DNA of 64,000 nt from Mesotoga infera. Its GTDB lineage: Bacteria > Thermotogota > Thermotogae > Petrotogales > Kosmotogaceae. Below the pieces are notes generated by a model. The model was not told the origin of the DNA, did no database searches, and saw only the letters and a list, made by a program, of their open reading frames with translations. The stretch's first letter is position 1. Each line of letters starts with the position of its first letter. The stretch spans positions 372,001-436,000 of the forward strand of contig NZ_LS974202.1 in the NCBI RefSeq assembly GCF_900157305.1, written 5' to 3'. Below, in pieces: positions 29,731 to 43,280 of the stretch. A program made the position numbers and the translations under genes.

Positions 29731-30242
29731 ATGCCGATATCGTTTCGATGCTATACTCTTCTGAAGGGTCTAGAGGATGCCGCTGGATCGAGAGCGACTA
29801 TTGTGTGGTGGGCGGTGAGCAATGGTGAGATGGCGGATCAAGTCCGGCATGACGGAAAGGAGGAAAGAACGCGAAAATGGTGACTGACGGGCTCCTGACG
29901 TCTGTCCCATTTTTCGCGAAGACCGAGATCCTGACTTGGAGCACGTCAGGATGACGTGAGCGGACTGTCATCCCGGGCTCCGACCCGGGATCCACTCCTT
30001 AGAAAACCGTGATTCTGAGTCAAGCTCAGAATGACGTCAAGTGGGTCCGGCATGATGGGAAGAAAGAAGGACTGTCATCCCGTAATGCTTTTATACGGGA
30101 TCTCGTTCTTTTCGCTCCTAACGAAGAACCTGGACGCGCAGCGTCGGAACGTCGAACGGTTCTTTTGCTCTTTCCAAGAACGGGTGCATGCTCCGGACGA
30201 AGGACGGCTCTTTCTGCTCTTCCAATAGACTAAAGAGGAGGT
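29731..30242. repeat. 512-bp gene-free stretch with REP-like palindromes
   Basis: No credible gene. At least five short inverted repeats follow one another: 29870-29880/29907-29918 (CGCGAAAATGG against CCATTTTTCGCG, one base unmatched), 29928-29935/29945-29952 (ATCCTGAC/GTCAGGAT), 29970-29977/29984-29991 (ATCCCGGG/CCCGGGAT), 30012-30019/30025-30032 (ATTCTGAG/CTCAGAAT), 30077-30084/30094-30101 (ATCCCGTA/TACGGGAT). Each of the last four is flanked on one side by GTCAT or ATGAC, as in REP/palindromic-unit families. From about 30125 the sequence changes to a GC-rich segment that shares short blocks with 38971-38992 and 40075-40085. Confidence 0.75.
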
Positions 30243-39015: not shown

Positions 39016-39079
39016 GTGCTGAATAGCCTGTAAAAAGCTTATAATCACCTAGATACACCATTTAGCGGGTCAGGCAGAT

Positions 39080-39427
39080 ATGATAAACTTGTGGTTGAGG
39101 ACAGATACAGGGGTGGTTTCTTTGCCTCTGAACTGGATAGATGTTCAGAACCTGGATTTTTATCATCTTTTGTTTCTGGAGAGACACCATTTGATGTGGT
39201 TCGCGAAAAGCCATTCGAAAGATAAGGTTCTGGCGATCGCCCTCAAAGCCCATCCGGAGGTCCTGTGGTATTTCAAGAGACTGCTTCCCGAAGCGGCCGA
39301 GGTTTTCGAGAATATGGCGGGTTCGGTGAGTCCCGACCTCTCGGGCGAGGAGATACGCCGGGCCGAGATCGAAGTGATGCGTTCGATAAACGACTGGATG
39401 GTCTATGTGGTCGATCCGGCTATCTAC
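39080..39427 (+). repeat. Left arm (A) of a 348-bp inverted repeat
   Basis: Bases 39080-39427 are repeated inverted at 41597-41944 with two differences that I found (a C to T making Pro to Ser, and a G to A making Ala to Thr). Weaker similarity extends about 50 bp upstream of both ATGs, covering the -10 area and the block ACACCATTTAG. Arms enclose about 2.2 kb. Confidence 0.9.
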
Positions 39428-39922
39428 GACCGCCTGGAGTTCACCAGATGGGACGACAGTGAGCTGACCGACTTCGTAGATTTTTCCGGTAGGCGCGTCG
39501 TGGATATAGGCGCCGGTACGGGAAGGCTTTCCTTTGTGGCCGCCTCCAGGGGAGCTACCGTATACGCAGTCGAACCGGTCAGAACACTGAGAGACTATCT
39601 CAAGAGGAAGGCCGAAACGATTGGCTACAAAAGGTTCTATGTGGTTGACGGCTTGATTGAAGAAATACCCTTTGAAGATGATTTCGCCGATATAGTTATA
39701 TCAGGCCATGTCTTCGGCGATTTTCCAGACCGTGAGTACGGCGAGATGGTCAGGGTGGTTAGGAACGGGGGCGATATCGTCCTCTTTCCGGGAAACAACG
39801 ACACAGACAACGAGATTCATGACTTTCTAGCGGGAAAGGGTTTCGGCTGGGGAAGGTTCGAAGAACCGGGCACGGGTTTCGTTAGGAAGTACCGTCTGAA
39901 AGTCGAAAAGCGATCACTCTAG
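39080..39922 (+). CDS. Class I SAM-dependent methyltransferase with an extra N-terminal domain
   Basis: 280 aa. Residues ~1-120 form a helical N-terminal domain of no known family (INLWLRTDTGVVSLPLNWID..., ERHHLMWFAKSHSKDKVLAI). Residues ~130-250 are a methyltransferase: motif I VVDIGAGTGRLSFVAA, motif II VYAVEPVR, motif post-I VVDGLIEEIPF, and DIVISGHVFGDFPD. Substrate unknown. A TATAAT lies at 39040-39045. The N-terminal 348 bp and the last 24 coding bases recur in inverted orientation at 41573-41944, so this is one of a pair. Confidence 0.85.
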   Translation: MINLWLRTDTGVVSLPLNWIDVQNLDFYHLLFLERHHLMWFAKSHSKDKVLAIALKAHPEVLWYFKRLLPEAAEVFENMAGSVSPDLSGEEIRRAEIEVMRSINDWMVYVVDPAIYDRLEFTRWDDSELTDFVDFSGRRVVDIGAGTGRLSFVAASRGATVYAVEPVRTLRDYLKRKAETIGYKRFYVVDGLIEEIPFEDDFADIVISGHVFGDFPDREYGEMVRVVRNGGDIVLFPGNNDTDNEIHDFLAGKGFGWGRFEEPGTGFVRKYRLKVEKRSL

Positions 39923-39923
39923 A

Positions 39924-39982
39924 GGGACAGCTCTTTTTTAATTCGAAGCGCATTAGTGGAGATGGGCTTGTTATTGTTTCAG
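39924..39982 (+). repeat. Left copy (B) of a 59-bp inverted repeat
   Basis: Matches 43195-43253 inverted with a single mismatch (GGGCTTGT against GGGCCTGT). Read on the minus strand it carries CTGAAACAATAA, the last three codons and stop of the AAA ATPase gene, so it looks like the 3' remnant of another ATPase copy plus its downstream sequence. Confidence 0.88.
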
Positions 39983-40182
39983 GTTTATCTCATCAATTTT
40001 CTTTCGAGGTCGGAAAGTTCACCGGTAATATTTATTATGCTCTTTCAAAGAGTGAGATCACGCTCAACAAAGCTGGACGGCTCTTACCGCTCTCTCAAAA
40101 AGTCGTTGACTGGCCCGTTTCAGGAATGATATCATTGTTTTGTTAGTTAGGCATAAGTAATCAATCCGGGAGTTGCTCTATT
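39983..40182. promoter_or_regulatory. 200-bp gene-free region with a promoter for the marR gene
   Basis: Promoter on the plus strand: -35 TTGACT (40106-40111), 18-bp spacer, -10 TATCAT (40130-40135), 48 bp before the GTG start. GGACGGCTCTT at 40075-40085 recurs at 30202-30212. Nothing else is recognisable. Confidence 0.55.
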
Positions 40183-40617
40183 GTGACCAGCGTGAAAGAA
40201 AAGCTTATAACTATCGTCGAAAGATTTTCCACGCTTATGGCCGAGCGCGAAGAAAGGGCGTTAAACAACGAAGGATCATCCAGGCTCACAGTACGGCAGA
40301 TGTATTATCTGAACATCATTGCCAAGATGGATCGTCCCACTATCAGCCAGATGGCCGAACGTCTCAGCGTAACAAAGCCTACCGTGACGACCACGGTGAG
40401 GAAATTCATTGAGGAAGGCTACCTGAAAAGAATCCAATCCGAGGGAGACAGGAGAATTTTCTGGCTGGAGTTGACAAACAGGGGACGAAAGGTGATCCAG
40501 ACTTACTACAAAATACACAAAGATTTTTCACACAAAATCTGCGAGGTTCTCGATACAAGGGAAGCGCAGGAGTTGATCAAAATCCTCGAAAAGATATTGA
40601 GGAAGATAGATTCGTAA
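40183..40617 (+). CDS. MarR-family transcriptional regulator
   Basis: 144-aa winged-helix regulator. Seen: the DNA-recognition region MDRPTISQMAERLSVTKPTVTTTVRKFIEEGYLKRIQSEGDRRIFWLELTNRGR (~48-100), with the D-R-R wing motif, flanked by dimerisation helices. Start GTG 40183; an internal GTG four codons on is possible. It lies 22 bp before the esterase gene and probably controls it and/or itself; ligand unknown. Confidence 0.9.
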   Translation: MTSVKEKLITIVERFSTLMAEREERALNNEGSSRLTVRQMYYLNIIAKMDRPTISQMAERLSVTKPTVTTTVRKFIEEGYLKRIQSEGDRRIFWLELTNRGRKVIQTYYKIHKDFSHKICEVLDTREAQELIKILEKILRKIDS

Positions 40618-40639
40618 ACACTTTCAAACGAGGTACAAA

Positions 40640-41578
40640 ATGCTTAAGACGTTAGTGATAGCAGCGACGCTGATTACAATGGGGTTCTATCTGGTCATAG
40701 CTTCGAAAAAGGGGGTTGACGAGACCTTCTGGTTGAACCACGACGGAATCGATAGAAAGACAATAGTTCACCTTCCCCCGAAAGTCGAAGACGACTCAAA
40801 ACTGCCCCTGGTCTTCGTGTTTCACGGACTGTTAGGCAACGCCAACTACACCAAGAATACTTACGGAATAACCGAGATATCCGACAGAGAGGGTTTCATA
40901 GCGGCCTATCCCGAAGGTACCGGCCCGCTGAAAAGCGTTTTTCTGAGCTGGAACGGCGACTTTTGCTGTTCATACGCAAAGGAAAACGAAATAGACGACG
41001 CGCGATACATAGTCGAACTTTTGAAGGAACTCAAACGAAATTATCCAGTCGATGAGAACAGAGTGTATCTGGTGGGTCTGTCCAACGGAGGCATGTTGAC
41101 CTATAAACTGGTGTCCGAGTACCCCGAGCTATTCGCGGCAGCGGCCATCGTTTCATCTTCGCCGGCAGGCGGAGCGAGCGAGGACGAAGTTTGCAGAATC
41201 GAGCCGCCGCCGAAACCGGTGCCGATGATCATCTTCCATGGGATGCTCGATCCGATAATACCTTATCATGGAGGTTACTCGTCCGCTTCGGAAGAGACTA
41301 TCTTCTTTCCCTCCATACCGGAATCTATAGACCTGTGGATCGCCGGCATGAACGCCGTCGAACTGGAAGAGACGAGTCTGGAGGGCGGAAAAGTATTGCT
41401 AAAAAAGTACGGGAGACCGGGAGAGGACTTCGAGATCCACTTCTACACCATCGTGGATGGAGATCACACCTGGCCGGGAAGAGAGAAGGGGTTGGACGCC
41501 CTTCAAAGCAGCTCTAAATCGAGTGTCAAAGCGAGCGAACTCATATGGGATTTCTTTCGTGATCGCCGGCTGGAGTGA
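40640..41578 (+). CDS. PHB-depolymerase-family esterase, membrane-anchored
   Basis: 312-aa alpha/beta-hydrolase of the LpqC/poly(3-hydroxybutyrate) depolymerase type. N-terminal residues 3-21 are a signal anchor with no cleavage or lipobox site. Seen: VFHGLLGNA (oxyanion loop), VGLSNGGML with nucleophile Ser148, HGMLDPIIPYHGG (acid) and DGDHTWPG (catalytic His), plus a CC pair in DFCCSY. Members cleave acetyl- or feruloyl-sugar esters or polyesters; this one should act outside the cytoplasm. It follows the MarR gene by 22 bp. Confidence 0.87.
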   Translation: MLKTLVIAATLITMGFYLVIASKKGVDETFWLNHDGIDRKTIVHLPPKVEDDSKLPLVFVFHGLLGNANYTKNTYGITEISDREGFIAAYPEGTGPLKSVFLSWNGDFCCSYAKENEIDDARYIVELLKELKRNYPVDENRVYLVGLSNGGMLTYKLVSEYPELFAAAAIVSSSPAGGASEDEVCRIEPPPKPVPMIIFHGMLDPIIPYHGGYSSASEETIFFPSIPESIDLWIAGMNAVELEETSLEGGKVLLKKYGRPGEDFEIHFYTIVDGDHTWPGREKGLDALQSSSKSSVKASELIWDFFRDRRLE

Positions 41579-41944
41579 TCGCTTTTCGACTTTCAGGTAG
41601 ATAGCCGGATCGACCACATAGACCATCCAGTCGTTTATCGAACGCATCACTTCGATCTCGGCCCGGCGTATCTCCTCGCCCGAGAGGTCGGGACTCACCG
41701 AACCCGCCATATTCTCGAAAACCTCGGCCGCTTCGGGAAGCAGTCTCTTGAAATACCACAGGACCTCCGGATGGGTTTTGAGGGCGATCGCCAGAACCTT
41801 ATCTTTCGAATGGCTTTTCGCGAACCACATCAAATGGTGTCTCTCCAGAAACAAAAGATGATAAAAATCCAGGTTCTGAACATCTATCCAGTTCAGAGAC
41901 AAAGAAACCACCCCTGTATCTGTCCTCAACCACAAGTTTATCAT
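41573..41944 (-). pseudogene. Inverted, internally deleted copy of the methyltransferase gene
   Basis: Same start codon and 348 bp as the gene at 39080, with 2 differences, then a junction joining codon 116 (TATCTAC) directly to CTGAAAGTCG, the start of the last eight codons. The missing 468 bp equal 156 codons, so the frame is kept but the whole SAM-binding domain is gone. The copy ends one base before the original stop (CTC TAG becomes CTC CAG), and the frame then runs 57 codons into the antisense of the esterase. It cannot be an active methyltransferase; a stand-alone N-terminal-domain product remains possible. A TATAAG box lies near 41978-41983. Confidence 0.85.
41597..41944 (-). repeat. 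Right arm (A') of the 348-bp inverted repeat
   Basis: Partner of 39080-39427. A further 24 bp at 41573-41596 matches 39896-39919 in the same inverted sense. Confidence 0.9.
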
Positions 41945-42023
41945 ATCTATCTGACACTACTAAATGGTGTTTCTGGCTACTTATAACCTTTATAGAAGCA
42001 TCACGAGATGAGGAGAAATGTGT

Positions 42024-42069
42024 TATGATGTAGGTGGAGTTACTCCACCCGGGTGGAGTTACCACACCC
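42024..42069 (+). promoter_or_regulatory. Promoter with tandem palindromic operator before the AAA ATPase gene
   Basis: A -10-like TATGAT (42024-42029) is followed at 42033-42049 by GGTGGAGTTACTCCACC, a 17-bp palindrome with one central base, and then by a second GGTGGAGTTAC at 42052-42062 that ends in CACACCC rather than TCCACC. Two copies spaced 19 bp apart over the expected start site look like a repressor site. No good -35. Confidence 0.5.
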
Positions 42070-42093
42070 GATTGTTCAAAGCGAGGCGAGCTT

Positions 42094-43206
42094 ATGTTTT
42101 TCTCCATCAGCCCGAAGACAAAACGGAGCGAACTTTTTGACCGTGAAAGAGAAATGAATGAATTGAAAAGGGCCACAGATAATGATCGACTGATCGTGCT
42201 CGACGGCCTAAGACGCACTGGAAAAACTTCACTTCTAAAGGTCTTTTTGAATGATACCGAAAACTTCAAAGCCTTTATCGACTGCCGCCATTTCGTCAGA
42301 GGCAATGTTATCGATTCCGTTGAATTCAATAATGCCCTGATCGACTCTATCGAAAAGGAAACAAAGACTGGAAAGTTCAGGAAACTTCTGGAATCGATCT
42401 CTTCAATGACAATACGAGACGTGCAGTTGAGTTTCGAAAAGAGCCGTAGACAAAGGAACCTCGCTTCAGTGCTCAAGAAACTCGATACAACTCTAGAAAG
42501 AAAAAGCGTAAAATTTATCGTGGCGCTGGATGAAGCACAGAACCTGAGATTTTACGGCAAAGGCGGCAGGGATTTCCTCAACTTGCTCGCCTATACTTTC
42601 GATAATCTCAAGAACATTATCTTCATTCTTACAGGCTCGGAAGTGGGCTTGCTCTTTGACTTTCTCAAACTAGAAGACCCCGATGAACCCCTCTACGCAC
42701 GCTACATCACTGAAATCACTCTTAAAAGGTTCTCTCGCGAAGAATCCATGCAATTCCTGATAGCCGGACTGGATGAGATCGGGGTCAACTTCAACAAAAG
42801 CGATCTTGAAAAAGTAATAACAACTCTCGATGGCGTAGTCGGCTACCTCGCAATTTTTGGATATGAAGTCTACAAGAACGGACCTGATTTCGAGACGGCT
42901 CTCGAAAGGGCCGGAGTTATGGCGAAAGGGCTGGTTAAAAAGGAAATCGACAGTTTGCTCGCCAGATCAATAAATTACGGCTATGCCCTGAAAGCGGTAG
43001 CGTTCGGTATGGAGAGGTATTCTCAAATAAAAAAATACATAGAAGCGAACTTCGGGCCTATTCACGACTCCACACTCAGCAATATTTTGAACGGACTCGT
43101 GAAGCAAAGTTTTCTGGAGATTTCCTTCTCAAAATCGATGAAGAGCTACTCTATACCCGATCCGATAACTAGCAGCTTCTGCGCTTCGATGAATCTGAAA
43201 CAATAA
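42094..43206 (+). CDS. AAA/STAND-type ATPase of the archaeal-ATPase family (COG1672-like)
   Basis: 370 aa. Seen: Walker A LDGLRRTGKTSLLK (38-51), Walker B FIVALDEAQNL, a sensor-like FILTGSEVGLL and a C-terminal winged-helix-like domain (KKYIEANFGPIHDSTLSNILNGLVKQSFLEI). Such genes are often multicopy in archaea and Thermotogota and their role is unclear. I start at ATG 42094 after GCGAGGCGAG, which gives the family beginning (FDREREMNELKRA); an ATG at 42034 would lie inside the operator. Its 3' end and tail are duplicated at 39924-39982. Confidence 0.85.
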   Translation: MFFSISPKTKRSELFDREREMNELKRATDNDRLIVLDGLRRTGKTSLLKVFLNDTENFKAFIDCRHFVRGNVIDSVEFNNALIDSIEKETKTGKFRKLLESISSMTIRDVQLSFEKSRRQRNLASVLKKLDTTLERKSVKFIVALDEAQNLRFYGKGGRDFLNLLAYTFDNLKNIIFILTGSEVGLLFDFLKLEDPDEPLYARYITEITLKRFSREESMQFLIAGLDEIGVNFNKSDLEKVITTLDGVVGYLAIFGYEVYKNGPDFETALERAGVMAKGLVKKEIDSLLARSINYGYALKAVAFGMERYSQIKKYIEANFGPIHDSTLSNILNGLVKQSFLEISFSKSMKSYSIPDPITSSFCASMNLKQ

Positions 43207-43253
43207 CAGGCCCATCTCCACTAATGCGCTTCGAATTAAAAAAGAGCTGTCCC
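43195..43253 (-). repeat. Right copy (B') of the 59-bp inverted repeat
   Basis: Spans the last three sense codons and stop of the ATPase gene and 47 bp beyond. One mismatch to 39924-39982. Confidence 0.88.
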
Positions 43254-43280
43254 TTGAGAGAGCCCGATTGGGGTCGGATA

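Follow-up and report, generated by a model that had tools for sequence, protein, structure and literature searches.

The methyltransferase locus of Mesotoga infera analysed here is probably the scar of a rearrangement, in which a small segment would have been inverted with duplication of its ends, followed by a deletion in one of the copies and by homogenisation of the arms that they share. The window, that is the whole stretch of DNA analysed, comprises 64,000 nucleotides (positions 372,001 to 436,000 of contig NZ_LS974202.1), and feature coordinates refer to it. The features of the locus are the following.

39026..39068, + strand: diverged promoter-side segment of the left methyltransferase (about 78% identity over 39026-39065 versus 41960-41999)
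39069..39427, + strand: left arm, with the methyltransferase start and N-terminal region (359 nt, 99% complementary to 41597-41955)
39080..39922, + strand: intact class I SAM-dependent methyltransferase, 280 aa (Methyltransf_11, E 2.6e-14)
39428..39895, + strand: SAM-binding-domain stretch of 468 bp missing from the right copy (alignment of the copies and Pfam)
39917..39989, - strand: ATPase 3' end and downstream flank, a reversed copy abutting the end of the left methyltransferase (93% to 43188-43260)
40183..40617, + strand: MarR-family regulator, within the inverted segment (PF01047, E 1.8e-13)
40640..41578, + strand: alpha/beta-hydrolase, a PHB-depolymerase-like esterase, within the inverted segment (PF10503; NF050058)
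41570..41596, - strand: final eight codons of the right methyltransferase, overlapping the esterase stop and with CAG in place of the TAG stop (alignment of the copies)
41597..41955, - strand: right arm, a truncated methyltransferase pseudogene (alignment of the copies)
41960..41999, - strand: upstream segment of the right methyltransferase, likewise diverged (78% to 39026-39065)
42034..43206, + strand: ATPase_2-family P-loop ATPase adjoining the right arm (PF01637, E 5.7e-19)
43188..43260, + strand: ATPase 3' end and downstream flank, partner of 39917-39989 (repeat scan of the window)

Two methyltransferase copies in inverted orientation

Alignment of the two copies confirmed the inverted repeat described in the earlier note: the arms 39080-39427 and 41597-41944 extend over 348 bp with two mismatches, at 39125 and 39248. 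Both mismatches change an amino acid (P/S and A/T), neither being synonymous. The in-frame deletion reported with the repeat was found as well, the right copy lacking exactly positions 39428-39895 (468 bp, 156 codons) and resuming at the last eight codons. The Pfam domain of the left methyltransferase covers residues 141-234. These alignments establish the repeats and the decay of one copy, and they revealed three features absent from the earlier note, namely the loss of the stop codon in the right copy, a diverged homology upstream of the arms and a second inverted pair. The stop TAG of the right copy is replaced by CAG, a substitution without effect on the amino acid of the overlapping esterase codon, and the lengthened frame, which enters the esterase gene in antisense, totals 181 aa. 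The arms can be lengthened to 359 bp (39069-39427/41597-41955) with four mismatches and 99% complementarity, whereas further upstream the homology reaches 39026/41999 (about 44 bp) at only about 74-78%. The 27-bp tail, made of the last eight codons and the stop position, is also common to both copies. The second inverted pair (39917-39989/43188-43260, 93%) corresponds to the ATPase 3' end and surrounds the arm pair. A repeat scan of the 64-kb window detected no repeat of at least 40 bp besides these two pairs, and the arm sequence occurs only twice in the whole chromosome of 2,965,660 bp.

Inverted repeats of such length can be misjoined when a genome is assembled from short reads, which could have produced a false inverted duplication or a misoriented inner segment. 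This origin is very unlikely given that the copies differ by substitutions, by the 468-bp deletion and by their diverged flanks, that the esterase-methyltransferase junction was seen independently in a sister genome (G003), and that the genome is a single contig with low contamination. Misassembly could still have affected the inner segment, in its orientation only.

Judged from its sequence, the right copy is a pseudogene. No microhomology was found at the junction of the 468-bp deletion, and deletion between short direct repeats was rejected on this ground as the origin of the gap. Orthologues of the left methyltransferase, with 50-67% identity, are present in most of the Kosmotogaceae searched. 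The gene is dispensable in the genus, since it has decayed in at least four other Mesotoga genomes: only fragments are left in G001, G003 and G006, and the copy of G009 contains five stops. The truncated right copy without a stop is consistent with such a genus-wide decay. A role in restriction-modification or defence was considered and rejected, as the family matches were to general class I methyltransferases and all NCBIfam matches fell below the cut-off; the single PADLOC match of the methyltransferase was limited to the generic domain. A promoter scan at both methyltransferase starts found nothing. A contig titled 'Clostridia bacterium' (L099, PWPR01000175.1) encodes a Kosmotogaceae-like methyltransferase with 51% identity, and this contig is possibly mislabelled or misbinned. 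The esterase lying between the arms exceeded the NCBIfam cut-off of NF050058, type 1 short-chain polyhydroxyalkanoate depolymerase (151.8 versus 150 bits).

Gene order in other Mesotoga genomes

In six other Mesotoga genomes (G001, G002, G004, G005, G007 and G009), the esterase converges on the methyltransferase, be it complete or decayed, and the 3' ends of the two genes are adjacent or overlap. Because the truncated right copy converges with the esterase in the same manner, it preserves the ancestral esterase junction. The pairing of these two convergent genes is retained across the genus.

The sister genome G003, which is about 90-93% identical to the window at the nucleotide level on the relA side, displays the order relA (-), a 94-bp methyltransferase remnant (+), esterase (-) and MarR (-). 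Relative to relA, the esterase and MarR genes of G003 thus point the other way from those of the window, and comparison of the two gene orders indicates that an inversion separates them. The earlier note had proposed that the segment may be invertible and that strains should be compared for its orientation. It has indeed been inverted at least once, as attested by the reversed esterase-MarR pair of G003, and in none of the genomes searched were the same arms flipped. Among the other Mesotoga genomes, the search for the arms in the other orientation gave no match, the arms being present only in this genome; a wider genome collection yielded just one distant relative and one unrelated methyltransferase, and viral contigs yielded no match.

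G003 combines on a single gene the two adjacencies, relA-methyltransferase and methyltransferase-esterase, that the window splits over two copies. Its methyltransferase is reduced to the 94-bp remnant, located at the expected place, the remainder being deleted. Information on the relA side comes from this single sister genome, a fragmented assembly of about 80 contigs. Synteny is lost beyond MarR, with relA, ATPase and opp on three separate contigs of G003, and the G003 neighbours of ATPase and opp lie hundreds of kilobases away in the M. infera chromosome, which defines a synteny breakpoint. Part of the ATPase downstream flank, as found in 39917-39989, is also located 3' of the ATPase in G003.

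Other observations were made on the flanks. Nothing in the sister locus matches positions 39990-40077, which separate the ATPase-tail copy from the region upstream of MarR. A repeat family with units of about 50-110 bp, represented in the window at 29829-30164, has well over 60 matches in the M. infera chromosome, and members of it also adjoin MarR and ATPase in G003. This family is possibly REP/MITE-like and is perhaps linked to the many synteny breaks. In the ATPase of G003 (L085:6066-6623, contig C30), a separate in-frame deletion has removed about 620 bp and left 185 of 390 aa, with an overlap of about 8 bp at the junction; it is a second in-frame deletion removing a domain among these genes.

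The mechanism and the order of events that we infer are the following. The ancestor would have carried relA, a forward methyltransferase, then the esterase and MarR genes in reverse orientation, an order still visible in the sister species. The esterase-MarR segment would have been reversed in an event that also duplicated, in inverted orientation, the methyltransferase on one side of it and the ATPase tail on the opposite side. One methyltransferase copy would thus remain next to relA, and the other with the convergent esterase. The latter would then have lost its SAM-binding domain, through the 468-bp deletion, and its stop codon. Finally, RecA-type recombination, by gene conversion possibly accompanied by crossing over, may keep the shared part of about 350 bp nearly identical. 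An inversion that duplicated its ends is favoured because the ancestral relA and esterase junctions survive on different copies, placed around a reversed MarR-esterase segment. It is further supported by the second inverted pair, which derives from the gene flanking the other end of the inverted segment. Against it, G003 retains too little of the methyltransferase to tell one ancestral copy from two, and the left ATPase copy consists of the tail alone, so that a second deletion would be needed if the whole ATPase had been duplicated.

We ranked second, as a possible but distinctly less probable account, an accidental crossover between inverted paralogues that were present beforehand, the truncated one next to relA and the intact one next to the ATPase, which would have flipped the segment with no duplication. 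It also explains nearly everything. Flipping the segment in silico generated the order relA, truncated methyltransferase, esterase (-), MarR (-), collinear with G003, with the ATPase tails lying as direct repeats on either side of a methyltransferase-ATPase unit; moreover, a crossover with a conversion tract would cover in one event the orientation, the identity of the arms and the diverged upstream segments. However, it requires a separate origin for the ATPase-side copy, and no methyltransferase adjoins this ATPase in any relative examined.

Probable arm homogenisation and the possibility of a switch

The two copies differ unevenly along their length. About 12 differences were counted in the 44 bp upstream versus 2 in the 348 bp of the coding arm (2-4 in 348-359 bp), and a Fisher test on these hand-counted differences gave P values of about 1e-8 to 1e-10. 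Copies produced by a single event should have diverged alike upstream and in the coding arm, which favours recombination or gene conversion between the arms; the earlier note had read their near-identity as a sign of recent duplication or ongoing gene conversion. From this contrast we infer that the identity of the arms is most simply explained by gene conversion, or by a crossover that left a long tract of conversion in them. Altered selection on the upstream segment, located beside the ATPase promoter, could alternatively be the source of the excess divergence.

Homologous recombination can act on inverted arms that are long and nearly identical, and the orientation of the segment differs between two species. 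Both facts would suit a programmed or frequent switch acting on the choice of the start that leads into the catalytic domain, or on the direction of the MarR and esterase genes. Such a switch is nevertheless very unlikely. When the segment was flipped in silico, the left frame became 181 aa and the right frame 280 aa, so that either orientation comprises one full and one broken gene; the flip being symmetric, nothing is turned off, and a phase switch of the methyltransferase was rejected for this reason. What the flip exchanges is the promoter regions of the two methyltransferase frames. In addition, the truncated frame is devoid of its own stop, and none of the other genomes searched contains the arms. 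A whole-genome search for serine resolvase families gave no match, and the nearest integrase-family match, for tyrosine recombinases, lies at 270 kb versus 411 kb for the cassette, about 140 kb apart; a recombinase would be unnecessary if RecA acts on the long arms. The invertible cassette that the earlier note had put forward as a possibility was therefore not upheld as a functional one, given the symmetric flip, the lost stop, the lack of a nearby recombinase and the absence of flipped arms from the genomes searched. RecA-mediated flipping between arms of about 350 bp is physically plausible and has perhaps already occurred; regulated or frequent flipping is unsupported. It is very unlikely that the arms recombine often enough for the population to contain the two orientations side by side, which would make the locus a recombinase-free, RecA-driven two-state system exchanging diverged promoters and reorienting MarR and the esterase.

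Comparison with known rearrangements

Duplication associated with inversion was described in Helicobacter pylori by Furuta et al. 2011, as cited in PMC8963470 and PMC4671568, and a duplication-linked inversion of about 128 kb is known in Thermus tengchongensis (PMC8963470). As far as the H. pylori process is presented in those citing papers, the Mesotoga locus resembles it in that inversion is tied to duplication at the ends and to the birth and death of gene copies. It differs by the size of the segment (about 2-3 kb), by the fact that both ends may carry duplicates, by the apparent later homogenisation of the arms, and by a duplication step deduced from a sister genome that lacks most of the gene. 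The hpn/hpn-2 pair of H. pylori, for which duplication by inversion was proposed (PMC4671568), consists of opposite-strand paralogues around a small cluster whose orientation varies between strains. It is a close analogue in form, with paralogues bracketing a cluster of variable orientation, but its two members are both genes whose role has been described, whereas one Mesotoga copy is broken. The staggered-break model of inversion, from the Drosophila literature (PMC7584159), resembles our locus in the order that it predicts when each end is cut in a staggered way, namely S1, S2 reversed, inner segment reversed, S1 reversed, S2; it is however a eukaryotic end-joining model, and the left ATPase copy of Mesotoga is nearly gone. 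Invertible phase-variation cassettes likewise have inverted repeats bracketing a segment able in principle to turn. The Mesotoga locus differs from them in having no dedicated recombinase nearby and no on/off outcome for the methyltransferase, and in not being conserved between species.

The locus is probably a small new example of duplication-linked inversion rather than a new kind of rearrangement. It offers a compact case of a rearrangement that both makes and breaks genes, for which a sister species supplies the earlier order, and it illustrates that a long, nearly identical inverted repeat combined with a domain deletion need not mean a switch. If the arms were found to flip in culture, the locus would provide a gauge of RecA-dependent inversion in a lineage for which few data are available.
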